A stretch of DNA of 64,000 nt from Parafilimonas terrae (lineage in GTDB: Bacteria > Bacteroidota > Bacteroidia > Chitinophagales > Chitinophagaceae), in assembly GCF_900115755.1 (NCBI RefSeq), contig NZ_FOXQ01000002.1:310001-374000 (forward strand). The letters run 5' to 3'. Under the pieces are notes generated by a model. The model searched no databases, was not told the origin of the DNA, and was given only the letters and a program-made list of their open reading frames with translations. Position numbers and translations under genes: made by a program. Positions 8,032 through 20,405 of the stretch are shown piece after piece; the stretch's first letter is position 1, and every line of letters begins with the position of its first letter.

Positions 8032-8379
8032 TTATTTTTTATCTAATAATTCTTTCAACGCTGCTGCCTGGCTATGTATTTCATCTTTGGCGCCGTAAAC
8101 CAGCGTAACGGTTTTATGCTTTTTTATTAGCTGCTTTAATTCATCAAGCGCTGAAGATTGCTGCAGCTCTGCTTTGTATTTTGTTTTAAATGCTTCCCAT
8201 TTTGCCGCATCATGGTTAAACCATTTACGCAGGACAGTTGATGGTGCAATGTCTTTCAGCCAGATATCAACATGCATGTCTTCTTTCTTAATGCCACGCG
8301 GCCATAACCTGTCAACCAGTATCCGAAACCCGTCTGTCTTTTCTTTTTCTTCGTAAGCCCTTTTTAACCTGATATTCAT
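8032..8379 (-). CDS. DUF488-family protein (YeaO-like)
   Basis: 115 aa. Matches the short DUF488 family through IRLKRAYEEK, FRILVDRLWPRGIKKE, WLKDIAPS, LRKWFNHD and VTLVYGAKDE. No catalytic function is established for the family. It starts 2 bp after the truncated haemoglobin gene and belongs to the same apparent transcript as cupin and trHb. DUF488 genes often sit in stress-related or nitrite/NO-linked operons, which agrees with the location just downstream of nirK. Confidence 0.87.
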   Translation of the reverse strand: MNIRLKRAYEEKEKTDGFRILVDRLWPRGIKKEDMHVDIWLKDIAPSTVLRKWFNHDAAKWEAFKTKYKAELQQSSALDELKQLIKKHKTVTLVYGAKDEIHSQAAALKELLDKK

Positions 8380-8381
8380 GT

Positions 8382-8771
8382 TTAGCGCATAATTTTAAAT
8401 GGTGATGCAATTTTTGTTTCCATTATGGCGGCAATGCTTGCTGCTTTTTCTTTTACTATATCAGCTTTCTTTCCTTCAAATAATTCATCAACCGTTCCAG
8501 TAAACAACAGCAGCCAGCGCTGAAAATGTTCCTTTGTAAACGGCACCTGTTCATTAAGATGTATATGCACGCTCATAGGATTGCCCACATATTTATTGGT
8601 GAGAAAAATAATATTCTCCCAAAAATCATACATCACCGGTAAATGCTTTTCCCAGTTCACTTTTGCTATATCATTAAAAATAAACCCAATCACATCATCC
8701 TGCTTTACCTTATCGTAAAAGGTATTTACCATGCGCTCAACATCGGCCCTACTTTTAATATCCTGTTTCAT
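8382..8771 (-). CDS. Group III truncated haemoglobin
   Basis: 129 aa. Length and sequence fit group III (P-type) truncated globins: VERMVNTFYDKVKQDDVIGFIF at the N-terminus, HLPVMYDFWENIIF in the middle, and the proximal haem ligand His in FTKEHFQRWLLLF. Such globins bind O2 and NO, and related members protect against NO or aid low-oxygen respiration. It is tightly spaced between cupin (4 bp) and DUF488 (2 bp), in the run that begins with nirK. NO scavenging next to a NO-producing nitrite reductase is the likely role, though this is inferred. Confidence 0.9.
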   Translation of the reverse strand: MKQDIKSRADVERMVNTFYDKVKQDDVIGFIFNDIAKVNWEKHLPVMYDFWENIIFLTNKYVGNPMSVHIHLNEQVPFTKEHFQRWLLLFTGTVDELFEGKKADIVKEKAASIAAIMETKIASPFKIMR

Positions 8772-8775
8772 AGAG

Positions 8776-9066
8776 TTATTTTATGATTAATATTATAGCA
8801 TCTGTCACAGCTTTTACATCGTGTGTTTCAAATGCTTTAAAAGAAAACATATCTCCCTTTTTTAACTCATATACTTTTTCTTTTAAGGTGAAAATAATTT
8901 CGCCTTCGGCCACCATTAAAAATGCATCAGTTGCTGAATGATGCGGCTTCAGCATTTCTTCTTTTTTCAATTGAAGCAGCACTGTATGAAAGCGCTCGTT
9001 TTTATAAACCTGCTTCGATTTTATTTTTTCAAAATCTTCCTGCTGGTATATGTTCCCTAAAATCAT
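8776..9066 (-). CDS. Small cupin-domain protein
   Basis: 96 aa single-domain cupin: LKPHHSATDAFLMVAEGEIIF is the first metal-site motif in degenerate form and FSFKAFETHDVKA the second. Histidines in both motifs could bind a metal. It starts 55 bp downstream of nirK and is followed at 4 bp by the truncated haemoglobin gene. The function is not predictable; in this setting a sensor or small metalloprotein linked to nitrite/NO metabolism is possible. Confidence 0.82.
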   Translation of the reverse strand: MILGNIYQQEDFEKIKSKQVYKNERFHTVLLQLKKEEMLKPHHSATDAFLMVAEGEIIFTLKEKVYELKKGDMFSFKAFETHDVKAVTDAIILIIK

Positions 9067-9120
9067 TTTATCAATTAAAATTTACTATACATACTACAGT
9101 TAAATAATCTAATAAACTAA

Positions 9121-10257
9121 CTACTTTATGGGTGATGGTTTTTCAATTTGCTTCATATAAGAACTATCCCATTGCCCGGCTACTTTTATCTGAGCTATTG
9201 CGCCATAATCAAAAGCTTCTATAAGGTTGTGGTTTAAAAACACATAGGTTCCCGGTTCCCTGAATTTGTATAAAGCAGCGGCTGCAGAACCGCCCGGCAC
9301 TGCCCATGTTTCAAAATCTGTATAAGGCCTGTTATTAAATTTTCCGCCGGGCCAGTAAAGATCGGCATGGCCGCCAATTAAATGAAAACGTGTATCGCGG
9401 TTGGCCTGCGAAGTAATGAACAAAACTTTTTCGCCAACATTGGCAGTAAGTGCATTCTTACCTAACAGGGCGCCTTCATGCCCGTTAAAAACAATGTTGG
9501 TGGGCATGAGTGTTTTTATTGATTCGCCTGCTGCCTGCACTGCCTGCTGCGGCGTTGCAATATTTATTATTTTACCGTCTTTGTCTTTAGGCAAATAAAA
9601 ATCCTGTTCAACAATGTAGTAGGCACGGTCAAATGTTACTGCATTGCCATTCTCATCTTTTAAGCCATCGCGTGGCAAAACCATTATTACGCCGTTCATA
9701 CCTGCCGTAACATGAATAGGCACCATTGTTCCGCCCGGTGCACAGTGATATACAAACACACCCGGCCTTGTGCACCTGAACCTGAACTTAGCTTCCTGGC
9801 CGGGGTTTACGAGCGTTAGATCGCCGCCGCCCATAGCTCCAGTGGCTGCATGAAAATCTATATTGTGTTGTTGAGTATTAGTGGCAGGGTTTTTTAAAGT
9901 GAGGTCTATAAAATCATCCTGGTGTGCAACGATAATAGGCGCTGGTACTGTGCCATTAAAAGTGAAAACCCATGCAGAATCGCCGGGTGCTACTTCAATT
10001 TTTTTTTCTTCAGCCGTTAAAGTAACATCAATAACTTTTGGGCCGTCTTTATCAACCTGCTCAAACTTTGGCAACATGGGAGGTGGCACCAGTTCTTCAG
10101 TTACATGTTTAAGGTTATCACCGTTTCCGCTGAACTGTGCATCAATAACCGAAGTGTTATTGTTTTTACATGCAGTAAAAAAAAATAACACTGCTATTGT
10201 AAATAACTTAAGACCATTCGAAAACCCTTGTGTTGAAAAAGCCTGTTTTTGCATCAT
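9121..10257 (-). CDS. nirK: Copper-containing nitrite reductase NirK, lipoprotein
   Basis: 378 aa. Reduces nitrite to NO in the periplasm. A signal peptide with lipobox (FFFTAC, Cys30) anchors it. Both cupredoxin domains and all copper ligands are present: type 1 His131, Cys172, His182 and Met187; type 2 His136, His171 and His343 (NHNLIEAF). Catalytic Asp134 (HNIDFHAATG) and His292 (FHLIGGHAD) are retained. The Cys-His segment CAPGGTMVPIH has one more residue than the classic CAPxGMVPWH, and Ile replaces the Trp before the His ligand. It starts 69 bp after nosY on the same strand, so it may be read from the nos operon, from its own promoter, or both. The adjacent second ATG gives an almost identical product. 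Confidence 0.95.
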   Translation of the reverse strand: MMQKQAFSTQGFSNGLKLFTIAVLFFFTACKNNNTSVIDAQFSGNGDNLKHVTEELVPPPMLPKFEQVDKDGPKVIDVTLTAEEKKIEVAPGDSAWVFTFNGTVPAPIIVAHQDDFIDLTLKNPATNTQQHNIDFHAATGAMGGGDLTLVNPGQEAKFRFRCTRPGVFVYHCAPGGTMVPIHVTAGMNGVIMVLPRDGLKDENGNAVTFDRAYYIVEQDFYLPKDKDGKIINIATPQQAVQAAGESIKTLMPTNIVFNGHEGALLGKNALTANVGEKVLFITSQANRDTRFHLIGGHADLYWPGGKFNNRPYTDFETWAVPGGSAAAALYKFREPGTYVFLNHNLIEAFDYGAIAQIKVAGQWDSSYMKQIEKPSPIK

Positions 10258-10326
10258 TCTTCAATTTAAGCGTGAGTAATATTGTTGAATTTATGCAGCA
10301 GGAGATGTTCAAATTTATACCATGCT

Positions 10327-11094
10327 TTATAAATCTTTCTTTTTAAATTTTTTCATGCTTAACCAAACTGGTATAATCACCCATAGCAATAAAACAGTAA
10401 CTGCAACAAACGAGCCTGTTTGCGATCCGAAGAAATCTTTAAATATAGCGCCTGTATAACCCATCAATGCAGAAACGTCCATGCGTAATAAAATTAAGAT
10501 GCGGCAGAGGTCAACCGGGTTAAATGCGCTGGTAAATACCATGAATTTATCAAGCGGGTAATCTTCAAACTGGAAAAGAATAAACAATATCAGCCCGTCG
10601 AATATCAATGCAAAATATAACCACAATAAAATGGTAATGCCAATGCCTTTTGCTTTATCGCGGGTAAGCACGGCAGCGAGCAATGCAATGGCAACAAATA
10701 TTATGGATAAGATTATGCCTGCGCCCAGCATAATAAAACCTGTAGCGGAAGGCTGGTAAATAATAATAGGAATGCCTGCACCAATAAAATAAGCAATGCT
10801 TAATGCGGCTGCCAGGCCATAAAACAAACTCAGCCAGATGGATTTTCTTTTTAAAGGCTGGCTTACGAGCAACTCAATAAATTCTGCGCTGTTATAAATG
10901 TAAATGGCTGAAAAAATAACAGACATAAGCGGCACAATAAGCAGCGTAATATTTAACAGGCTTAGCATGCCTTTGGAAGCATCATCCTGGAGTGCAAATA
11001 CACTGAATGAAATGATCAGTAATAAAACCGTATATGCCAGTACAATTTTATTGCGCAGAATATCAGCCGTTACATATTTAATTATCTTTTTCAT
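10327..11094 (-). CDS. nosY: NosY-type ABC transporter permease
   Basis: 255 aa with six predicted membrane segments and the ABC-2 type permease pattern (VPLMSVIFSAIYIYNSAEFIELLVSQPL near the second segment). Together with NosF and NosD it forms the NosDFY complex, which supplies sulfur and/or copper for CuZ assembly in N2O reductase. The start overlaps the nosF stop by 4 bp, so the two are translationally coupled. nirK follows 69 bp downstream. Confidence 0.9.
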   Translation of the reverse strand: MKKIIKYVTADILRNKIVLAYTVLLLIISFSVFALQDDASKGMLSLLNITLLIVPLMSVIFSAIYIYNSAEFIELLVSQPLKRKSIWLSLFYGLAAALSIAYFIGAGIPIIIYQPSATGFIMLGAGIILSIIFVAIALLAAVLTRDKAKGIGITILLWLYFALIFDGLILFILFQFEDYPLDKFMVFTSAFNPVDLCRILILLRMDVSALMGYTGAIFKDFFGSQTGSFVAVTVLLLWVIIPVWLSMKKFKKKDL

Positions 11095-11804
11095 GAACGT
11101 TGATTATGCATGACACTTACAATGGCCCTTGCCAGTTTTTGCTGGCCGGTTTCATTGCGGAGTATATTAATATTTTTATGGAACAAAAGCTTGCCTTCCT
11201 GCATATATATTACCTGTGTTACCAGCTCATCAAGATCGCTTAATATGTGTGAGGTAATGATTACAAGCCTGCCTTTTTTAATCTGCGCTTTAATTTTCTC
11301 TTTTAAAATTTCGGAAGCAACAGGGTCTAAGCCTGCAGTGGGTTCATCTAAAATCAATACATCCGTATTAAATAAAAAAGCCAGCGAAGCGCTTACTTTT
11401 TGCCTTGTGCCGCCGCTTAGTGTGCGCATTCTTTTTTTCAGCATTGCATTCAATCCAAAACTTTCAATCAGCTCTTCATCAAAAGCGGTATTGTAAGGGC
11501 TGCGAATATCTTTTATCATGGCTATCACCTGCCCGATGGTCATGTTTTCAGGATAGCGGCCTATTTGCGGCATATAGCCAATGTGACGGCGGTATTGCCA
11601 GTCGCGTAAAATATTTTTATCATTGAATGTAATAAAGCCGCTATCGGGCACCACCATTCCTAATATCGATTTTATTAAAGTTGTTTTGCCGCTGCCGTTT
11701 GGCCCCATCAGCGCAATACATTCGCCTTTCATAAAATTTACCGAAACGTCGTCCAGCGCTTTCAGCTTACCAAAACGTTTGGTGAGGTTGCTTGCAATAA
11801 TCAT
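11091..11804 (-). CDS. nosF: NosF-type ABC transporter ATPase
   Basis: 237 aa ABC ATPase. Walker A is GPNGSGKTTL, the signature is TLSGGTRQKVSA, Walker B is DVLILDEPTAGLDP, and the switch His lies in VIITSHILSD. It energises the NosDFY maturation complex for N2O reductase at the inner membrane. It overlaps nosD by 4 bp upstream and nosY by 4 bp downstream, which supports the assignment over a generic ABC ATPase. Confidence 0.93.
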   Translation of the reverse strand: MIIASNLTKRFGKLKALDDVSVNFMKGECIALMGPNGSGKTTLIKSILGMVVPDSGFITFNDKNILRDWQYRRHIGYMPQIGRYPENMTIGQVIAMIKDIRSPYNTAFDEELIESFGLNAMLKKRMRTLSGGTRQKVSASLAFLFNTDVLILDEPTAGLDPVASEILKEKIKAQIKKGRLVIITSHILSDLDELVTQVIYMQEGKLLFHKNINILRNETGQQKLARAIVSVMHNQRS

Positions 11805-13045
11805 AAGGCTAATGGTTTCATTAATGGAAAATTATCTTTCAGGTTTTCCGGCGTAATACCGGGCAATACTTTTTCTGTTTTATCAAACAGCGTTACCATA
11901 AAACTTCTGAACAGCACCATCGCCGATGGATTTTTTTCTACTATCATTGAAAACAAACTTACGGGCCGGTAAGGCACATCGCCAATGCGGTCTTTATTTA
12001 TATCATAACCTTCATATTTGTCCCAATAATTATGATCGAATGTGTTGAGCACCAGCGAGCCATTGGTAGCAATATCAAATGTGTTGTTCTGAAAATTATT
12101 ATAGAGGATATGATTGTCGCTGCAGCTTGCCTGCACACGCATAGCCCATCCATTGCTGTTAAAAACATTCTTCTCTACTTTAATCCTTGTTGTGCCTTCT
12201 GCATGAATACCAATTGTGTTGTTTGTAAAATGGTTATGATAAATATAGCCGTCTGTAATCTCTTTCAGTAATAAGCCATAAGCGCCATCGCCCCAGTTTT
12301 TAATAAATGAATTGCCTGTCATTTTTACGCCATGTGAATACATAACCGCAACGCCTGAACCATTTTGTTTAAAGATGTTTGAAATGTATGCATCGTTATG
12401 TGAGAACATGAAATGCAAACCATAACGAAGATTATTTTCAGAAATATTTTTTTGAACGATGGAATTGGTTACAAACTCAAAATAGATTCCATCGCGATGG
12501 CCTTTGATGGTGTTATCTGTAATGCGCAGATTGTCGCATTTCCAGCAATGAATGCCGTTGCCGCTGCTTGATTCTTTGGCATAAGCCTTCAAATGATTGT
12601 TGGTGATAATACAGTTATTGCTGTATTGCGTTAACACGCCCCAGTAAGCATCATCAATTATATTGTTTGAAATAGTTACATTATCTGCATGAAAAATTTT
12701 AATGGCGGCAATATCATTTACATCAGACTTTCCTGAATGCTGCAGCCTGAAATTATCAATTACCACATTAGGCGCTTTAATTAAAATGATCTGGTATTTG
12801 TTTTCACCATCTAAAACAGGTTGCTGAATACCTTTCAATACAATAGTTTTATCAATTACAATTTCCTGTTCTTTATACAACCCTGTTTCAACTAAAATTG
12901 TATCGCCGCTTTTACAATGCTGCAATGCTGCTTTAATTGAAGTAAATGGTTTGTTTTTACCAACAACCAGCGTAGCTGCATTTAACTGGGCTGCATAAAA
13001 AATGCAGCCTGCAAAAAAGAAAACTATGACTGAAAAAATTTTCAT
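11801..13045 (-). CDS. nosD: Periplasmic copper-binding/maturation protein NosD
   Basis: 414 aa with a signal peptide (about residues 1-22) and a right-handed beta-helix of NosD type: repeated N-x-I-x-x-N turns such as NIIDDAYWGVLTQYSNNCIITNNH, and a C-terminal FDHNYWDKYEGYD motif common to NosD proteins. It is the periplasmic partner of NosFY in building the CuZ centre. It starts 38 bp after nosL ends and overlaps nosF by 4 bp. Operon order L-D-F-Y is the usual Bacteroidota order. Confidence 0.93.
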   Translation of the reverse strand: MKIFSVIVFFFAGCIFYAAQLNAATLVVGKNKPFTSIKAALQHCKSGDTILVETGLYKEQEIVIDKTIVLKGIQQPVLDGENKYQIILIKAPNVVIDNFRLQHSGKSDVNDIAAIKIFHADNVTISNNIIDDAYWGVLTQYSNNCIITNNHLKAYAKESSSGNGIHCWKCDNLRITDNTIKGHRDGIYFEFVTNSIVQKNISENNLRYGLHFMFSHNDAYISNIFKQNGSGVAVMYSHGVKMTGNSFIKNWGDGAYGLLLKEITDGYIYHNHFTNNTIGIHAEGTTRIKVEKNVFNSNGWAMRVQASCSDNHILYNNFQNNTFDIATNGSLVLNTFDHNYWDKYEGYDINKDRIGDVPYRPVSLFSMIVEKNPSAMVLFRSFMVTLFDKTEKVLPGITPENLKDNFPLMKPLAL

Positions 13046-13083
13046 TGATTTTAATCATCAGTAACCGGTAACTGCATATTGAT

Positions 13084-13518
13084 TTATTTAATGAGCTCAT
13101 CCCAGTTTAAAGGCATGCCGCCAGGCAGCTTATTCATTACCATAGCAAGACTGTCGCGGTTATCGAAAGCTGCAATATTACCGTTCATGGGGCTGTGCAA
13201 AAGATCGCTTTTATACAACAGTAAACTTTCGTTTGCTTTTATAAGATCATGGCTGCCGCTAAAGTTTACGGCATACATATCTTTAATATCGCTTTTTGCA
13301 ATGTTGCTTTCTTTTAAAAACGACATGAGGCAATGCAGGTCATCAAACTTATACACCTTGCCTTTCGTGGTAATTATTTCGCCCCCAAACTGTGGATCGG
13401 ATATTGTCATTTTACAAAAGCTGCATGGCTCTTTGCCGAGCTGAAAAGGCTCAGGCCCTGCAGATGTGCATGCAACCAGTAACGATAATGTTATGATTAC
13501 AGCAACTATGTTTTTCAT
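13084..13518 (-). CDS. nosL: NosL copper chaperone lipoprotein
   Basis: 144 aa from the ATG at 13518, which overlaps the stop of the preceding gene; an upstream start would add 28 non-signal residues. The lipoprotein signal is SLLVACTS. The Cu(I)-binding motif CSFCKM lies in KEPCSFCKMTISDP, followed by the NosL-type segment GKVYKFDDLHCLMSFLK. NosL delivers copper to apo-NosZ in the periplasm. It belongs to the membrane protein-nosL-nosD-nosF-nosY run. Confidence 0.93.
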   Translation of the reverse strand: MKNIVAVIITLSLLVACTSAGPEPFQLGKEPCSFCKMTISDPQFGGEIITTKGKVYKFDDLHCLMSFLKESNIAKSDIKDMYAVNFSGSHDLIKANESLLLYKSDLLHSPMNGNIAAFDNRDSLAMVMNKLPGGMPLNWDELIK

Positions 13519-14111
13519 AATAACTTTTTTTCTTTTTTTGAAATGATAATCTGAAACGACATGCAAAGCACCAGCAAAACAGCGGCTGCAATAAATACCC
13601 ATCCACCAATATCCGGGATGGAAAATGCGCCAAAATTTAGTAACTGCTTATAACCGAGCAAAGGTGGCTGGTAAGCCATGCCGGGCACACGTATCGGCGC
13701 TTCTGAATTAAGATTGTGGCCGTAATTATATTCCCATCTCCAGAAATCAAACATGGCTACAATACAAAATGCAACAAACAAAACTGTTGTGAAGTACAAC
13801 ATGCTTTTCCGGTTGCTGATGGCTGTAACAAATACCAGCACTGCAAAAAATATAATACAGTAAGGCAATATGGTAAACTCAATAAAATCGTTGGCGTGCA
13901 AGGTCCTCATGCCTATGTAATGGTTAAGCCCGTTAATAATTTCTACATCGCCGCCAAGCTTTCCTGCAAATATCTGCAGTGCCAGCCCTTCAGGATACTG
14001 AGGCGCCGTTAATTCTATTTTCCATATAGGAAAAAATAAAACCAGCACCAGTAATAAGGCTGAAAGAAAAGTAAGTGATCTTATCCAGGGCTTTAACTTG
14101 TTTTGTTTCAT
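13515..14111 (-). CDS. Conserved membrane protein of the nos cluster (NosB-like position)
   Basis: 198 aa with four predicted membrane segments (about 12-30, 76-96, 104-122 and 168-188) and two long periplasmic or cytoplasmic loops. No domain is recognised with certainty. It is the first gene after nosZ in the maturation operon and overlaps nosL by 4 bp. In clade II nos clusters an integral membrane protein called NosB often occupies the place after nosZ; this may be its counterpart, but the residues do not prove homology. The segments FFPIWKIELTAPQYPEGL and FDFWRWEYNYGHNLN are conspicuously aromatic. A role in NosZ maturation or electron supply is an inference from position. Confidence 0.7.
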   Translation of the reverse strand: MKQNKLKPWIRSLTFLSALLLVLVLFFPIWKIELTAPQYPEGLALQIFAGKLGGDVEIINGLNHYIGMRTLHANDFIEFTILPYCIIFFAVLVFVTAISNRKSMLYFTTVLFVAFCIVAMFDFWRWEYNYGHNLNSEAPIRVPGMAYQPPLLGYKQLLNFGAFSIPDIGGWVFIAAAVLLVLCMSFQIIISKKEKKLL

Positions 14112-14345: not shown

Positions 14346-16346
14346 TTATTTACTGATAGTAGTTGTGTCTTTACCACCCGGAGCTTTATCGCCTGTGCCA
14401 AATGCCAGGGGCACTTTGCTTCCTTTGGGTGAGATGCGTATATAGCCGGACATTTCCTGGTGCAGGGCGCTGCAGAAATCAGTGCAATAGAAAGGATATA
14501 TTCCAACTTTTTCCGGCACCCATTTAAGCGTGCGTGTTTCACCCGGCATTATCAGCAACTCCGCTGTACTGGCAGCTTTAATGGCAAAGCCATGCGGTAT
14601 ATCCCAATCCTGCTCCTGGTTAGTAACATGAAAATAAACTTCATCGCCCACCTGCACGCCTTCAATATTATCCGGTGCAAGGTGAGAACGTATTGCCGTC
14701 ATATAAACATGAACCTTATTGCCTTCACGCACCACTTTGGCATTGGGCTCGCCCTTGGCGGCATAAGTGTTTTCATTTTGCATGATATCATAAAACTTCT
14801 TGCTCTTATCTTTTATGAGGCTGGCTTCAATAGCCTGTGCATAGTGCGGCTCGCCGATGGTTGGAAAATCGAGTATCAGCTGCATCTTATCGCCTGATAT
14901 ATCATATAACTGTGCACTCTGCGCAAGTTCCGGGCCTGTGGGCAGGTAACGGTCTTTGGTGATCTTGTTATAAGCAATAACATATTTTGCATTTGGCTTT
15001 TTGGTATCGCCGCCCGGAATGCTTAAGTGGCCGATGGAATAATAAGTGGGCGCACGGTCAAGCACTTTCAGGTCTTTAATATTCCATTTCACAATTTCAG
15101 ATGAAATAAAGAATGACGTATAAGCGTTGCCTTTGCCATCAAACTCTGTATGTAATGGGCCAAGGCCTGGTTTCTGCACTTCGCCATATAAAACATCTTC
15201 ATATTTTAATACAGGGATGTTTTCGTAAGTACCATCAAATTTTTTGTTGTTGATGGCATTCATCATTTTACTGAAACTCAATACAGGTATTAATGCCGCA
15301 AGCTTGCCTGAACCAACAATATATTCTCCTGTGGGGTCAACATCGCAGCCATGCGGAGACTTAGGGCAAGGCATCATATAAGCTATGCCCGGCAATGCCA
15401 TTGCATCTAAAACAGTAACTTCTGTTTCTATGGTTGAAGTGGCCGTTTGTGTTTTTTCATCATACACATTATGTGCATATTTCACCTGTTGCTTCACACC
15501 CTTGCCCTGTTGCAGGTATTCTTCTGCTTTCTTCCAGTTAATAGCCATGATAAAGTCTTTATCACGCTGTGATGCGTTTACTTCCAGCAATGTATGCGCC
15601 TGTTCTGTATTGTAGCAGGAGAAGAAGAACCATCCATGTGACGGGCCTTTACCGGCATGGCTCAGGTCGAGGTTAATGCCTGGTATTTTTAACTGGAAGG
15701 CAATCTTCATGTTGCCGGAATTTTTGTCAACGCTTACAAAGCTTATCGTACCAAGGAAATTCTTTTTATAAGAATCGATTGGCACGTCACCATCTGCATT
15801 ATCGGGCGGTACGCTGAAGCGGGTGCCTGCAACAATATATTCTGTATTTTCTGTGGCGAAAGGAGAGGAGTGGTTACCTGCACTGTTAGGCAGCTCCAGT
15901 ATTTCAGCCGTGTTATAAGTGCTTAAATCAATACGTGCAATACGGGGTGTGTTATTACCGTTGCCAAACACCCAGCGCCCATCAATTTCGCCGTTTGTTT
16001 GTGAAGCTTCTATATGATGCAGATCATCCCACGGAATGAAACCGTGTGAAGTGTTGAGCATGGGTTTTGATTCTTCACTGTAACCATAACCGGCCTGCGG
16101 GTCAACAGAGAACACGGGTATTACGCGAAGCAATCTTCCCGAAGGTAATCCATACACGCTCATTTGCCCGCTGAAACCGCCGGAAACAAAATCGTAAAAT
16201 TCATCGTACTTGCCGGGTGGCACATACGTTTTTTGCGCAGCATCAGCGCTTACCGCATTGGCAGTATTTTTTGGTTTGCATGAGTAAGCACATAGCATTA
16301 GTGCTGCCGCCAGTGCAAGTGCTGCCGGCACATTTGATAGTTTCAT
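14346..16346 (-). CDS. nosZ: Nitrous-oxide reductase NosZ, clade II (Sec-type) form
   Basis: 666 aa. Reduces N2O to N2 in the periplasm. The N-terminus is a Sec/lipoprotein-type signal (cysteine at residue 23, AYSCKP) with no twin-arginine motif, which is the hallmark of clade II (atypical) NosZ. CuZ-region histidines are seen in DDLHHIEASQTNGEIDGRWV (His110/111), SHAGKGPSHGWFFFS and KSPHGCDVDPTGEYIV. The C-terminal cupredoxin domain carries the CuA site CTDFCSALHQEM with Cys621, Cys625, His629 and Met632. It starts 21 bp after a cytochrome c lipoprotein gene, its likely co-transcribed electron donor. There is no nosR, as usual for clade II. An FNR-like box lies upstream of the pair. Confidence 0.97.
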   Translation of the reverse strand: MKLSNVPAALALAAALMLCAYSCKPKNTANAVSADAAQKTYVPPGKYDEFYDFVSGGFSGQMSVYGLPSGRLLRVIPVFSVDPQAGYGYSEESKPMLNTSHGFIPWDDLHHIEASQTNGEIDGRWVFGNGNNTPRIARIDLSTYNTAEILELPNSAGNHSSPFATENTEYIVAGTRFSVPPDNADGDVPIDSYKKNFLGTISFVSVDKNSGNMKIAFQLKIPGINLDLSHAGKGPSHGWFFFSCYNTEQAHTLLEVNASQRDKDFIMAINWKKAEEYLQQGKGVKQQVKYAHNVYDEKTQTATSTIETEVTVLDAMALPGIAYMMPCPKSPHGCDVDPTGEYIVGSGKLAALIPVLSFSKMMNAINNKKFDGTYENIPVLKYEDVLYGEVQKPGLGPLHTEFDGKGNAYTSFFISSEIVKWNIKDLKVLDRAPTYYSIGHLSIPGGDTKKPNAKYVIAYNKITKDRYLPTGPELAQSAQLYDISGDKMQLILDFPTIGEPHYAQAIEASLIKDKSKKFYDIMQNENTYAAKGEPNAKVVREGNKVHVYMTAIRSHLAPDNIEGVQVGDEVYFHVTNQEQDWDIPHGFAIKAASTAELLIMPGETRTLKWVPEKVGIYPFYCTDFCSALHQEMSGYIRISPKGSKVPLAFGTGDKAPGGKDTTTISK

Positions 16347-16367: not shown

Positions 16368-16847
16368 TTATTTAGCGCCATCATTTTTACGCATGAATTC
16401 GAGGATGTGGCGTGCATCATCATCTGTAAGATTTTGGTTAGGCATTCTTACGAGGCATATTTCGAGCTGTGATTGTAATGCGGGGTCTTTATCAATCATG
16501 GCATCAGGATTAGTAATAAAATTCATGATCCATGCAGGCTGATGCCTTTCGGTAACACCGGCCCAGCCCGGCCCAACTAATTTTTCATCGGTAAGCTTGT
16601 GACAGGCAGAACATTTTACATCGAATATTTTTTTACCTGCATCTGCCATTGTTGCATCCAGCGGGCCAACCTCAACATTTGAGAATTTTCCTTCACCGCG
16701 GTGTGGATCATAGTCTGCTAAAGATTTGGTACCTGCATTCTGATCAGTACTGTTACTATCAGCATTGCTATTGTCATTGTTGCCGGCACCGCCTGAGCAG
16801 GCGTACAACAAGGCAGAGATAATTGTAATTGCAAGCATTTTCTTCAT
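16368..16847 (-). CDS. Cytochrome c lipoprotein, probable electron donor to NosZ
   Basis: 159 aa from the ATG at 16847; a longer in-frame start would put about 42 residues ahead of a clear lipoprotein signal (SALLYACSGG). A single haem c site CSACH lies near residue 80, and an axial Met is likely in VRMPNQNL. A low-complexity Asn/Asp/Ser-rich linker (about residues 20-40) follows the lipid anchor. It is immediately upstream of nosZ and shares its promoter, consistent with the small cytochromes (nosC type) of clade II clusters. The FNR-like palindrome is 57 bp upstream of the start. Confidence 0.9.
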   Translation of the reverse strand: MKKMLAITIISALLYACSGGAGNNDNSNADSNSTDQNAGTKSLADYDPHRGEGKFSNVEVGPLDATMADAGKKIFDVKCSACHKLTDEKLVGPGWAGVTERHQPAWIMNFITNPDAMIDKDPALQSQLEICLVRMPNQNLTDDDARHILEFMRKNDGAK

Positions 16848-16875: not shown

Positions 16876-16884
16876 CAAAGTTTA
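16876..16884 (-). promoter_or_regulatory. Putative -7 element of cytochrome c-nosZ promoter
   Basis: On the minus strand this reads TAAACTTTG, close to the Bacteroidetes TAnnTTTG box but with one extra spacer base. It places transcription start near 16869, about 43 bp from the centre of the FNR-like palindrome, as in class II activation. Confidence 0.4.
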
Positions 16885-16903: not shown

Positions 16904-16921
16904 TTATGACTGAAATCATAA
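16904..16921. promoter_or_regulatory. FNR/DNR-like box between crp/fnr gene and cytochrome c-nosZ
   Basis: TTATGA-N6-TCATAA is an inverted repeat with perfect 6-bp arms. Its core TGAC-N4-ATCA is one base away from the FNR core TGAT-N4-ATCA. It lies between two divergent units and is the probable site through which the adjacent Crp/Fnr protein activates nosZ and perhaps controls itself. Confidence 0.6.
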
Positions 16922-16972
16922 AAACAATAAGTAATGGCATGATTAATGTCAACTTTTTATAATCCGATTGCA

Positions 16973-16980
16973 TAAATTTG
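16973..16980 (+). promoter_or_regulatory. Putative -7 element of crp/fnr gene
   Basis: TAAATTTG matches the Bacteroidetes TAnnTTTG -7 consensus and sits 21 bp before the ATG at 17002. The matching -33 TTTG is not clear. Confidence 0.45.
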
Positions 16981-17001
16981 GAATACTGAAAGCCACACTC
17001 A

Positions 17002-17595
17002 ATGATACAGGAAGATATTTTGCTTACTTATGGGGCAACATTTAGAAAATATACGAAAGATCAATGTATTTTTTTTGAAGGCGATGAGCCCCTGTTTTTT
17101 TTCCAGATCTCAAAGGGGTCTGTGCGTATGGTAAATATTTTCAGGGATGGGAAAGAATTCATACAAGGTTTATTTAATGAAGGACAAAGCTTTGGCGAGC
17201 CCTCTTTATTAATAAACTCCTGTTATCCTGCTACTGCTATTGCCAATGAGGATACCGTTATAATAAAAATGACAAAAGAAAATTTTTTGTACCTGCTGCG
17301 CAATAACGATGAGATATTATATGATTTTGCAACAATGCTGGGTGCAATGCTCTATATGAAAACTGCTATGACAAAAGAAATTGCCAGGGAAAGGCCGCAT
17401 CATCGCATAGCTACTTTATTGCACATGCTTAAAAAACAAAGCGGCTGCCCTAAAGAAAAAACATTTAAGATTGAATTATCGCGCCAGCGTATTGCGGATA
17501 TGCTTGGCTTGCGCGTGGAAACCGTTATACGCAACATGAAGAGGCTGGAAGAAGATGGGTTTATTGCTATCAAAAAAGGAAAAGCATATATATGA
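17002..17595 (+). CDS. Crp/Fnr-family regulator, probable denitrification regulator (DNR/NnrR-like)
   Basis: 197 aa. The N-terminal beta-roll sensor covers about residues 15-125 (CIFFEGDEPLFFFQISKGSVRM; GQSFGEPSLLINSCYPATA). A long dimer helix and then the winged helix SRQRIADMLGLRVETVIRNMKRLEEDGFI follow. It lacks the N-terminal cysteine cluster of FNR, so it probably does not carry a 4Fe-4S centre; NO-responsive DNR/NnrR proteins likewise lack it. It is divergent from cytochrome c-nosZ with a shared FNR-like palindrome, and a second such site overlaps its own stop codon ahead of the next gene. Regulation of nos and the downstream gene is inferred from that arrangement. Confidence 0.85.
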   Translation: MIQEDILLTYGATFRKYTKDQCIFFEGDEPLFFFQISKGSVRMVNIFRDGKEFIQGLFNEGQSFGEPSLLINSCYPATAIANEDTVIIKMTKENFLYLLRNNDEILYDFATMLGAMLYMKTAMTKEIARERPHHRIATLLHMLKKQSGCPKEKTFKIELSRQRIADMLGLRVETVIRNMKRLEEDGFIAIKKGKAYI

Positions 17596-17606
17596 TTAAG
17601 ATCATA
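17591..17606 (+). promoter_or_regulatory. FNR/DNR-like box upstream of the 17641 gene
   Basis: TATGA-N6-TCATA with the exact core TGAT-N4-ATCA. It overlaps the stop codon of the regulator gene. Its centre is about 42 bp before the ATG of the next gene, where transcription probably starts a few bases after CTTTGCC (17631). Confidence 0.6.
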
Positions 17607-17640
17607 AAAATGCTATACAGTTGTTTTTTTCTTTGCCGCA

Positions 17641-18873
17641 ATGACTATAAGCTTATATAAATGGCTGCGCATTGCAGTTTTTAACCTGTTGCTTGTGGCT
17701 TTTCTTGGCCTTGTTATGCGGTATAAAATTGCTTTTAGCCTGCCCTTTATTACTCAAAAATATTTTCTAAATGCGCATTCGCATTTTGCATTTGCAGGCT
17801 GGATTACGCAGGCCCTTATGACTTTTATTGCATTTTATATTGCAAAGAACAAGGCATCTTTTTCACTTAAAAAATATAACCGTTTATTGTTTGCTAATTT
17901 GATAACGGCTTATGGCATGCTGTTTTGCTTTCCGTTTGAAGGCTACGGATTGATGTCGATTATTTTTTCAACGTTGTCAATTTTTGTATCGTATGCATTT
18001 GCTATTGTGGTATGGCGCGATTTAAACAGGATTAATAAAAAAACTGTTACCCATGCGTGGATAAAGGCCGCTTTAATCTGGAGTGCGCTATCATCAATCG
18101 GCCCTTATACGTTAGCCTATATGATGGCAACAGGGCACATTTATCAAAATATATACCTGGCATCAATTTATTTCTACCTGCATTTTCAATATAACGGTTG
18201 GTTCTTTTTTACGTGTATGGGCTTATTCATGAATAAGCTGCCGGAATTGCTGTTCTCTGTCAAGCTGAAGAAAAATATTTTTTATGCATTTGCGTTTGCC
18301 TGCCTGCCAGCTTACTTTCTGTCTGCATTATGGCTTCCTATTCCAACATGGATTTATATTATTGTTGTAGCAGCTGCTTTTGTGCAGGTTATTGCATGGG
18401 GTGCATTATCTGTAAAGCTTGTTTCAAACCGCATTGCCATTTTTTCACAACAGCATAAGCCTGTTACATGGCTTTTTGTTTTGCCGGGAATAGCGCTAAG
18501 CATAAAACTATTGCTGCAGTTAGGTTCTACCATTCCTGCATTAAGCACGTGGGCTTTTGGTTTCAGGCCCATTGTAATTGGCTACCTGCACCTTGTGTTC
18601 CTTGGCATATTCAGCATATTTATCCTGGCATATAATTTATACAATGGGTATTTTGAATATAACAACCGGTTTGCACGGGGCGCATGGATTTTTATAGCGG
18701 GCATTATTTTAAATGAGGCGCTGCTGATGCTGCAGGGGCTTGATGCCATTACTTATACAGGTGTTCCGTATATAAACGAACTGCTGCTCGGTGCTGCAAT
18801 TGTGATGTTTGTTGGCATACTTATTTTGAATATGGCAACTGTTTCCAGTAAGCAAAACAAGGGCAACATTTAA
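17641..18873 (+). CDS. Polytopic membrane protein resembling haem-copper oxidase/NnrS subunits
   Basis: 410 aa with 11-12 predicted membrane helices and no soluble domain. Histidines sit in helix contexts like those of haem-copper oxidases or NnrS: NAHSHFAFAGW (His46, His48), YLHFQYNGWFFF (His181) and GYLHLVFLG (His317). I cannot place it in a named enzyme family, and the full CuB/haem ligand set of an oxidase is not obvious. The HxHxxxAGW motif is shared with the NnrS-like protein at 38100. It directly follows the Crp/Fnr gene and has its own FNR-like box, so it is probably expressed during denitrification. It could be an accessory protein for NO handling, a haem/copper membrane protein, or a divergent reductase subunit. 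Confidence 0.65.
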   Translation: MTISLYKWLRIAVFNLLLVAFLGLVMRYKIAFSLPFITQKYFLNAHSHFAFAGWITQALMTFIAFYIAKNKASFSLKKYNRLLFANLITAYGMLFCFPFEGYGLMSIIFSTLSIFVSYAFAIVVWRDLNRINKKTVTHAWIKAALIWSALSSIGPYTLAYMMATGHIYQNIYLASIYFYLHFQYNGWFFFTCMGLFMNKLPELLFSVKLKKNIFYAFAFACLPAYFLSALWLPIPTWIYIIVVAAAFVQVIAWGALSVKLVSNRIAIFSQQHKPVTWLFVLPGIALSIKLLLQLGSTIPALSTWAFGFRPIVIGYLHLVFLGIFSIFILAYNLYNGYFEYNNRFARGAWIFIAGIILNEALLMLQGLDAITYTGVPYINELLLGAAIVMFVGILILNMATVSSKQNKGNI

Positions 18874-19535: not shown

Positions 19536-19551
19536 TATGATATTAATCATC
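19536..19551. promoter_or_regulatory. FNR/DNR-like box with TGAT-N4-ATCA core
   Basis: TATGA-N6-TCATC, one base short of the perfect TATGA-N6-TCATA palindrome seen at 16905 and 17591, and containing the exact TGAT-N4-ATCA core. It lies about 70 bp upstream of the universal stress protein start. Confidence 0.5.
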
Positions 19552-19558
19552 CCGCATT

Positions 19559-19572
19559 TTGATGCACATCAT
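19559..19572. promoter_or_regulatory. FNR/DNR-like box TTGAT-N4-ATCAT
   Basis: Nine of ten positions match the FNR consensus. Centre about 54 bp before the universal stress protein ATG, the best placed of the three boxes for activating that gene. Confidence 0.5.
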
Positions 19573-19619
19573 ATTGAAGGGAAAGGGACGGATATAAATT
19601 CGTTGCTCATTTTTTATAC

Positions 19620-20405
19620 ATGCAATCGATTATAACGCCCACCGATTTCTCGCAAGCTTCATTAAACGCTGTGAATTATGCAGCGGACACAGCACTTGCC
19701 TTAAATGCCAGGCTCGTGGTTTTGCATGCAACCGGCACGCCCGGCACCGGCAGTATTTATTCGGCATTTGAACATGATGAAATTGATGAAAAATTAAACA
19801 GGCTAAAAAATGATTTAATAAAAAGAACGAATAAAAAAATACCAGTGCACACTAAGAAAAGCATTGGTTTTACGGAGAGCGAGATCATTAACGTATGCAG
19901 GTATCAAAAGCCACTGGCCGTAATTATGGCTACAAGAGGTGCAAACTTCAAGAAGCATTTTTTTATGGGCAGCATTACGGTTTATCTTTCAAAAAATCTC
20001 GAATACCCTGTAATTGTTGTGCCCCGCGATCTTGAGCATAAACCTATTCAAAAAATATTGATGGCAACAGACCTTGAGAATATACACGGGTTGCCAATAG
20101 AAAGAATAAAAAATATTGTAACGGCTTTTAATGCGCAGCTTGATGTTGTGCATGTGTGTAACGGAGAAGAAAAGCAGGAGATGGCTTCAGGCCGCATGCA
20201 TGAATTAACTGGTTACCTGAGTGGTTGCAATGCGCATGGTCATATTATTTACCATAGAAATGTATATGAAGGGATTATAGATTTTGCAAAAGAAAATAAC
20301 GCTGATATTATTTTAACCTGCCCCAAAAAGCATAGCTTCTTTTACAAAAGCAAATCGAAGCAGTTAATATTTAAAGCGCCATTTGCAGTAATGACACTTC
20401 AATAA
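19620..20405 (+). CDS. Tandem universal stress protein (UspA family)
   Basis: 261 aa containing two Usp folds (about 1-138 and 139-261). The first is the clearer: MQSIITPTDFSQASLNAVNYA, then the family end motif GSITVYLSKNLEYPVIVVP. The second begins QKILMATDLENIHG and ends with FKAPFAVMTLQ but lacks a full G-2x-G-9x-G(S/T) ATP loop. Such proteins act in cytosolic stress adaptation, often under Crp/Fnr control in low oxygen. Two or three FNR-like boxes upstream support that here. The next small gene follows after 6 bp. Confidence 0.88.
   Translation: MQSIITPTDFSQASLNAVNYAADTALALNARLVVLHATGTPGTGSIYSAFEHDEIDEKLNRLKNDLIKRTNKKIPVHTKKSIGFTESEIINVCRYQKPLAVIMATRGANFKKHFFMGSITVYLSKNLEYPVIVVPRDLEHKPIQKILMATDLENIHGLPIERIKNIVTAFNAQLDVVHVCNGEEKQEMASGRMHELTGYLSGCNAHGHIIYHRNVYEGIIDFAKENNADIILTCPKKHSFFYKSKSKQLIFKAPFAVMTLQ

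Follow-up and report, generated by a model that had tools for sequence, protein, structure and literature searches.

The window, a stretch of 64,000 nucleotides, contains a nitrous-oxide reductase locus in which the gene for a Crp/Fnr-type regulator is flanked by two copies of one palindrome, TATGA-N6-TCATA (the box). The genes and features of the locus are the following.

8032..14111, minus strand: genes that follow nosZ on the same strand, for a membrane protein, nosL, nosD, an ABC ATPase (nosF-like), a permease (nosY-like), nirK, a cupin, a globin and DUF488
8382..8771, minus strand: globin gene (PF01152, 21.2 bits; cut-off 21)
9121..10257, minus strand: nirK, in the gene run after nosZ
14346..16346, minus strand: nosZ, nitrous-oxide reductase of the Sec-dependent (clade II) type (TIGR04246, 920.5 bits; cut-off 625)
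16368..16847, minus strand: cytochrome c (PF00034), first gene of the nos operon
16905..16920, no strand: box 1, TATGACTGAAATCATA, predicted operator of the cytochrome c-nosZ operon; recurs upstream of cytochrome c-nosZ in relatives
17002..17595, plus strand: Crp/Fnr-type regulator, 197 aa, recognition helix LRVETVIR
17591..17606, no strand: box 2, TATGATTAAGATCATA, predicted operator of gene 17641; at the same position in relatives
17641..18873, plus strand: 410-aa membrane protein, predicted target of box 2, whose fold is predicted to be that of a haem-copper oxidase/NO reductase subunit

The nosF-like and nosY-like names come from gene order and the sequence as read, not from a family search. 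The genes at 8032..14111 are possibly an extension of the nos transcript.

The initial annotation described two matching TATGA-N6-TCATA boxes that bracket the Crp/Fnr gene, one between the regulator and cytochrome c-nosZ and the other on the stop codon of the regulator, ahead of gene 17641. Both positions are confirmed. Box 1 (centre 16912.5) lies between the cytochrome c and regulator genes, box 2 contains the regulator stop codon TGA (17593-17595), and these are the only exact matches in the window. At up to one mismatch, the window has 13 matches against 3.0 expected, a number reached in none of 100 shuffles. In the whole genome (4.99 Mb) the reversed pattern has two exact sites and the box six, of which three (L001, L004 and L005) are within long open reading frames and were set aside. 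A box followed by TTTG 23-27 bases downstream occurs at three sites in the genome, and at none for the reversed control. Two of these are the window boxes. The third is upstream of an operon for a small protein, a YHS protein and SCO1/SenC, in which the SCO1/SenC gene scores 79.9 bits with PF02630 and the YHS gene falls marginally under its cut-off.

TTTG lies exactly 33.5 bp from the centre of both window boxes, in opposite directions.

16876..16884, minus strand: predicted -7 element of the nos promoter, TAAACTTTG, with TTTG at 16879-16876, 33.5 bp from box 1
17632..17635, plus strand: TTTG, predicted -7 core for gene 17641, at 33.5 bp from the centre of box 2

Relative to TAnnTTTG, the TA is one base further off in the box 1 promoter and is absent at the expected place in the box 2 promoter. 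The spacing itself is general. From 89 sites, one was dropped for incomplete flanks and 29 as redundant, and 54 of the remaining 59 show TTTG, TTTA or CTTG on one or both sides, at +33.5 or +34.5. At other offsets the tetramer occurs at a mean of 6.0 sites (maximum 11), and 1000 flank shuffles gave a mean of 5.1 (maximum 12). Loci L140-L169 were left out of this statistic because they had been fetched by a pattern already containing TTTG. In 46 non-redundant flanks chosen on the tetramer only, the positions that played no part in the choice favour T (72%), A (85%) and C/T (83%), which yields TAnnTTTGY; a -33-like TTG is found in four of the 46. The published Bacteroides -7 consensus is TANNTTTGY (PMC12632263). 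Since the -7 core TTTG is at +33.5, transcription is predicted to start ~40-42 bp from the box centre. This agrees with the class II spacing of 41-43 bp from centre to start that had been predicted for the two boxes, and the 54 sites would have a similar geometry. For gene 17641, the predicted start falls at or beside its ATG. Very short 17641 leaders appear to be usual, since the distance from box centre to ATG is 40-59 in relatives.

Is the box tied to this particular regulator? A scan of species genomes confirmed 123 loci encoding relatives of the regulator, and we analysed the best 80 of them. In these best 80 of 123, the relatives are 39-55% identical to the regulator, and are mostly from Chitinophagaceae and Flavobacteriia, with a few other Bacteroidota; one locus labelled as a Kuenenia MAG (L051) is nearly the same as a Fluviicola locus (L042). 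The exact box is present in 69 of these 80 loci, with 87 copies against 3.4 expected, and is missing from 11. Over the same best 80 of 123 loci, exact copies of the FNR word TTGAT-N4-ATCAA number nine against 3.4 expected, and the CRP word TGTGA-N6-TCACA once against 1.1.

We also surveyed 147 genomes of the family to which the window belongs, calling the regulator at E<=1e-30, which gave 52 genomes with and 95 without it. Boxes followed by TTTG number 95 in the 52 regulator genomes (16 for the reversed control) and 45 in the other 95 (31 for the control). At least one such site is present in 41 of 52 genomes with the regulator versus 32 of 95 without, and 11 of the 52 have no exact box with TTTG. 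The counts differ between the two groups with a Mann-Whitney p of 1.7e-10, a value that ignores relatedness. NosZ scores above its cut-off in 48 of the 52 regulator genomes and in 27 of the 95 others.

Conservation upstream of nosZ in relatives had been set as a test of the motif, and it was found. Of the 75 genomes in which NosZ passes the cut-off, 30 were scanned, and two of these 30 loci have fewer than 120 bases upstream. Where the regulator is present, 18 of 21 nosZ loci have a box with no more than one mismatch (13 exact); where it is not, four of nine do (two exact). Each of six control words has 0 to 4 matches over all 30 loci. Some of the matches upstream of nosZ are to the box that lies past the regulator gene. 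In many nos promoters within the family the box reads TATGAYTNNACGCATA and is followed by TAATCTTG, with CTTG at +33.5. The same-genus genome G007 has a nosZ 90%, a cytochrome c 80% and a 17641 homologue 68% identical to those of the window, and there too an exact box, TATGACTTCTGTCATA, precedes cytochrome c, with CTTG at +33.5. At this locus the regulator has no match at E<=1e-3, and genome-wide there is only a 27% match in a 376-aa frame; G007 is 100% complete by its markers. In the gap between its nos operon and 17641 homologue (L215, G007:C133, 4820-5321) the box is kept, and neither a regulator gene nor a remnant of one was found. Either the gene was recently lost, or it lies in unassembled sequence, or the box is read by another protein. 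Both NosZ and the regulator are missing from G107, the other genome of the same genus.

The regulator belongs to the Crp/Fnr superfamily (PF00027, 69.6 bits with a cut-off of 27.5; PF13545, 47.7 bits with a cut-off of 27). It is under the cut-off of every NCBIfam model listed; it scores 37.9 bits with Fnr (cut-off 228) and 66.5 bits with the CRP equivalog (cut-off 266). Among 81 aligned relatives no cysteine position is conserved at 90% or more, and the FNR iron-sulphur cysteine set is not present. CRP contacts the cAMP phosphate through Arg82/Ser83. Alignment of the regulator with a Vfr chain places YPATA opposite QERSAWV, with gaps between, at the cAMP-contact stretch. The recognition helix, LRVETVIR, hardly varies over the 81 aligned sequences, in which R171, E173, T174, I176 and R177 are invariant, V172 is kept in 79 and V175 in 80. 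LRVETVIR is unique among the Crp/Fnr-type domains of this genome, the other four of which read differently at the recognition helix. In L018 (G000:C29), a frame with a receiver-like N-terminus (by eye) continues into a Crp-type domain with the recognition helix IATESLIR.

The symmetrised consensus of the box is TTATGAYYnnRRTCATAA, of which the TATGA core is the search word itself. The centre-aligned seventh base is A in TATGA-N6-TCATA boxes, G in CRP sites and T in FNR sites. V172 and I176 of the regulator are presumably the counterparts of FNR V208 and S212. Rodionov et al. describe a correlation of CRP residues 180 and 181 with the bases of the site (PMC1274295). The initial annotation noted that the boxes depart from FNR sites in favouring TATGA, and this agrees with the A at the outer base. 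It further suggested that the box may be the specific site for this regulator. Computationally, that suggestion is supported by the 26-fold enrichment of the box, its greater frequency in regulator genomes, and a near-invariant helix that the other such domains of the genome do not share.

Which genes would such a regulator control? We clustered the first genes after correctly spaced boxes, with counts that include duplicate loci of one site. The classes are small membrane proteins (42), which are the largest class in Flavobacteriia, 17641 homologues (26), a globin-like family (21), cytochrome c-nosZ (14), RIC/ScdA (9) and fasciclin proteins (4). Singletons and pairs include hemerythrin, a NorC-like cytochrome c, a tryptophan-2,3-dioxygenase-like protein and PflA. 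NorC-like is our own naming, for a protein that Pfam assigns to cytochrome c, and the globin-like family is named by similarity to the window globin gene; the tested member of that cluster has no Pfam or NCBIfam match. A homologue of the window globin gene is present in 54 of the 80 loci (best 80 of 123). With the RIC model TIGR03652 (cut-off 204.7), the L050 protein scores 250.4 bits and the L165 protein is under the cut-off. In Salegentibacter loci, the RIC gene is followed by a 17641 homologue. The sites upstream of the nosZ operon and of RIC, globin, hemerythrin and NorC-like cytochrome genes are those expected for a role of the DNR/NnrR type, and we infer that the regulon is concerned with nitric oxide and nitrogen-oxide respiration.

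Two further arrangements were seen among the box-controlled genes. At L066:5205-5549 and similar places, the box precedes genes for membrane-type proteins of 94-115 aa, of which one was tested and has no Pfam match. In a Fluviicola MAG (L042:4985-5896), a tryptophan-2,3-dioxygenase-like gene is divergent from a globin-family gene, and a single box stands at +33.5 to both.

Gene 17641 has no Pfam or NCBIfam match common to its relatives, and a sequence profile search of the PDB gave no match up to E = 1; only a fold search placed it. NnrS (PF05940) was rejected as its identity, with no match over the cut-off in any of 60 genomes. The structural model, made from 18 sequences (pLDDT 87.5, pTM 0.90), aligns with cbb3 CcoN over 406 residues (Z 33.3, rmsd 3.5) and with NO reductases (cNOR) over 395 (Z 32.7, rmsd 3.3) and 389 residues (Z 30.9, rmsd 3.2), at ~10% identity in each comparison. 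The protein is thus predicted to have the 12-helix fold of haem-copper oxidase/NO reductase subunit I. Members of the haem-copper superfamily have six metal- or haem-ligand histidines, in TM2, TM6, TM7 (two) and TM10 (two). In the 17641 protein this set is incomplete: the only conserved histidines are 46 and 48 (helix 2), 181 (helix 6) and 317 (helix 10). Most relatives have a further histidine at 44 that the window protein lacks. Because helix 7 has no histidines, reduction of O2 or NO by the known mechanism is unlikely, and a single-haem b protein seems more plausible. In Bacteroidota, members of the 17641 family repeatedly accompany clade II nosZ or RIC.

Additional box-like sequences were considered around other genes of the window. 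TATGATTAATATTATA, at 8782-8797, was rejected, being too near the globin start for class II spacing. No box was seen in the region upstream of nirK, and nirK was rejected as a direct target for that reason; its transcription may come from the nos promoter or be under some other control. That upstream region (10258-10326) carries a TAAATTTG element. Before the regulator gene itself there is one candidate.

16938..16953, no strand: CATGATTAATGTCAAC, a possible degraded autoregulatory box with three mismatches and TTTG at +31.5, identified by eye

At L111, L021, L022 and L023, a second box with one or two mismatches stands before the regulator gene, at +33.5 from TTTG; at L024, from the cultured relative Limnovirga soli, which has both of the flanking boxes, the corresponding box is degraded (three mismatches). 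The autoregulation-type box of near relatives is degraded in the window.

The computations establish a conserved motif, its constant distance from the -7 element and its tie to the regulator, whereas binding, activation and the signal are inferred. The best explanation, which we consider likely, is that the boxes are operators of the protein encoded at 17002-17595, that this protein is a Crp/Fnr class II activator, and that its signal is probably NO or anoxia. A dimer would bind the symmetrised consensus, with helix LRVETVIR reading the G-A core common to CRP and FNR sites and conferring a third specificity, for A at the outer base, distinct from the T of FNR sites and the G of CRP sites. The bound centre would lie ~41 bp before the transcription start and overlap the upstream end of the Bacteroidota promoter. 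A class II activator is the most likely kind of regulator because the promoter has a -7 element and no evident -33 element, and its upstream end is overlapped. Box 1 would switch on the cytochrome c-nosZ operon and box 2 gene 17641, whose message would be almost leaderless. A signal of nitric oxide, or of the anoxic state of nitrogen-oxide respiration, is suggested because the wider regulon comprises nosZ, the repair protein RIC/ScdA, globin, hemerythrin and copper delivery. Several points speak against the explanation: G007 has a box without the regulator, the TA is displaced or absent in the window, nirK lacks a box, autoregulation is degraded, and exact sites are missing from 11 of the 52 regulator genomes (box with TTTG) and from 11 of the best 80 of 123 loci (box alone). 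The small membrane proteins that dominate the targets in Flavobacteriia say nothing about NO.

An alternative explanation is that the boxes are real Crp/Fnr operators read mainly by some other regulator, with the neighbouring protein as one of several users. The nos box kept in G007 without a neighbouring regulator would fit this, as would the 32 of 95 ortholog-free genomes that have a box with TTTG (45 sites against 31 for the reversed control) and the near-box at four of nine nosZ loci without the regulator. Nevertheless, the four other Crp/Fnr-type domains of the genome differ in recognition helix, the excess of sites tracks the ortholog, and the 1e-30 cut-off may have missed diverged orthologs, so that we regard another main reader as improbable. 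Slightly less probable still is that the regulator mainly represses from the boxes, or both represses and activates. In many loci from Tenacibaculum the regulator gene has the box over its own start region (centre 8 bp upstream of the start), where bound protein would block; yet a globin gene diverges from the regulator there, with its -7 element at +33.5 from the same box, and activation fits the constant class II distance and the lack of a -33 element.

The superfamily and the palindrome geometry would also suit ordinary FNR- or CRP-type sites under oxygen or cAMP control. We judge this very unlikely given position 7, which is A and not T or G, the counts of both words in the best 80 of 123 loci, the lack of a conserved cysteine set, and scores far from the cut-offs of the NCBIfam models for CRP and Fnr. 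Palindromes of this kind could also arise by chance where DNA is AT-rich, and this genome has 57 with one mismatch allowed; as an account of the boxes, however, chance is refuted by the fixed spacing and opposed by the enrichment and the phylogenetic link, and we give it almost no credence. Activation by the regulator at the class II position is the reading that we retain.

E. coli FNR and CRP share the fold, the palindrome geometry and the class II position, but differ in their sites (TTGAT-N4-ATCAA and TGTGA-N6-TCACA) and in their ligands. Nitrosophilus labii is a thermophile outside Bacteroidota. Its clade II nosZ has been proposed to be under the control of a Crp/Fnr protein, but the site searched for in that study was TTGA-N6-TCAA (PMC11539149). 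DNR of Pseudomonas and beta-proteobacteria is a Crp/Fnr activator of nir, nor and nos that responds to NO and lacks FNR-type cysteines (PMC1274295); its site, however, is given as CTTGATnnnnATCAAG, and the regulator scores only 42.2 bits against PDB chain 3dkw of DNR, under the CRP-type chains. NnrR of alpha-proteobacteria is a Crp/Fnr regulator of nir, nor, nos and nnrS, with the different site ctTTGcgnnnncgCAAag. HcpR and HcpR2 are Crp/Fnr sensors of NO that are found in Bacteroidota as well, with a haem-dependent HcpR in Porphyromonas gingivalis (PMC12750200). In contrast to the boxes, their sites are of the TGTGA-, TTGAC- or GTAAC-type, and their target is hcp, not nosZ. Two Crp/Fnr proteins of P. 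gingivalis, HcpR and PgRsp, are linked to haem. None of the DNR, NnrR, HcpR and HcpR2 consensuses that we compared is TATGA-N6-TCATA. In the openly licensed literature we found no description of a TATGA-N6-TCATA site, nor of an operator for Bacteroidota nos genes.

These genes may form a Crp/Fnr regulon with its own operator that works like those of DNR and NnrR, groups of which the regulator is at most a candidate member. A more specific reading makes the regulator the equivalent, in Bacteroidota, of DNR/NnrR: a sensor of NO which, with a third specificity (for A at the outer base of the half-site), exerts class II control at -7/-33 promoters over clade II N2O reduction, NO repair and 17641, a previously unclassified haem-copper-fold protein. 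We advance this tentatively, with our doubts slightly outweighing our confidence. A substantial part of the biological removal of nitrous oxide is attributed to Bacteroidota that carry clade II nosZ. If the proposed regulon is right, the regulator, the operator consensus and the promoter geometry would predict nitrogen-oxide-responsive genes in Bacteroidota, an unclassified family with a haem-copper oxidase fold would be tied to the nitrogen-oxide response, and the regulator would provide a clean case of Crp/Fnr proteins changing DNA specificity.

One further likely member of the regulon lies within the window, downstream of gene 17641.

19536..19551, no strand: TATGATATTAATCATC, candidate upstream box of a tandem pair, one mismatch
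19558..19573, no strand: TTTGATGCACATCATA, candidate box with one mismatch and TAAATTCG at +29.5, upstream of a universal-stress gene

The two near-boxes are spaced 22 bp apart, and TAAATTCG follows the second at the class II position. The gene that they precede (19620-20405) matches PF00582 and is likely to be controlled with the others.
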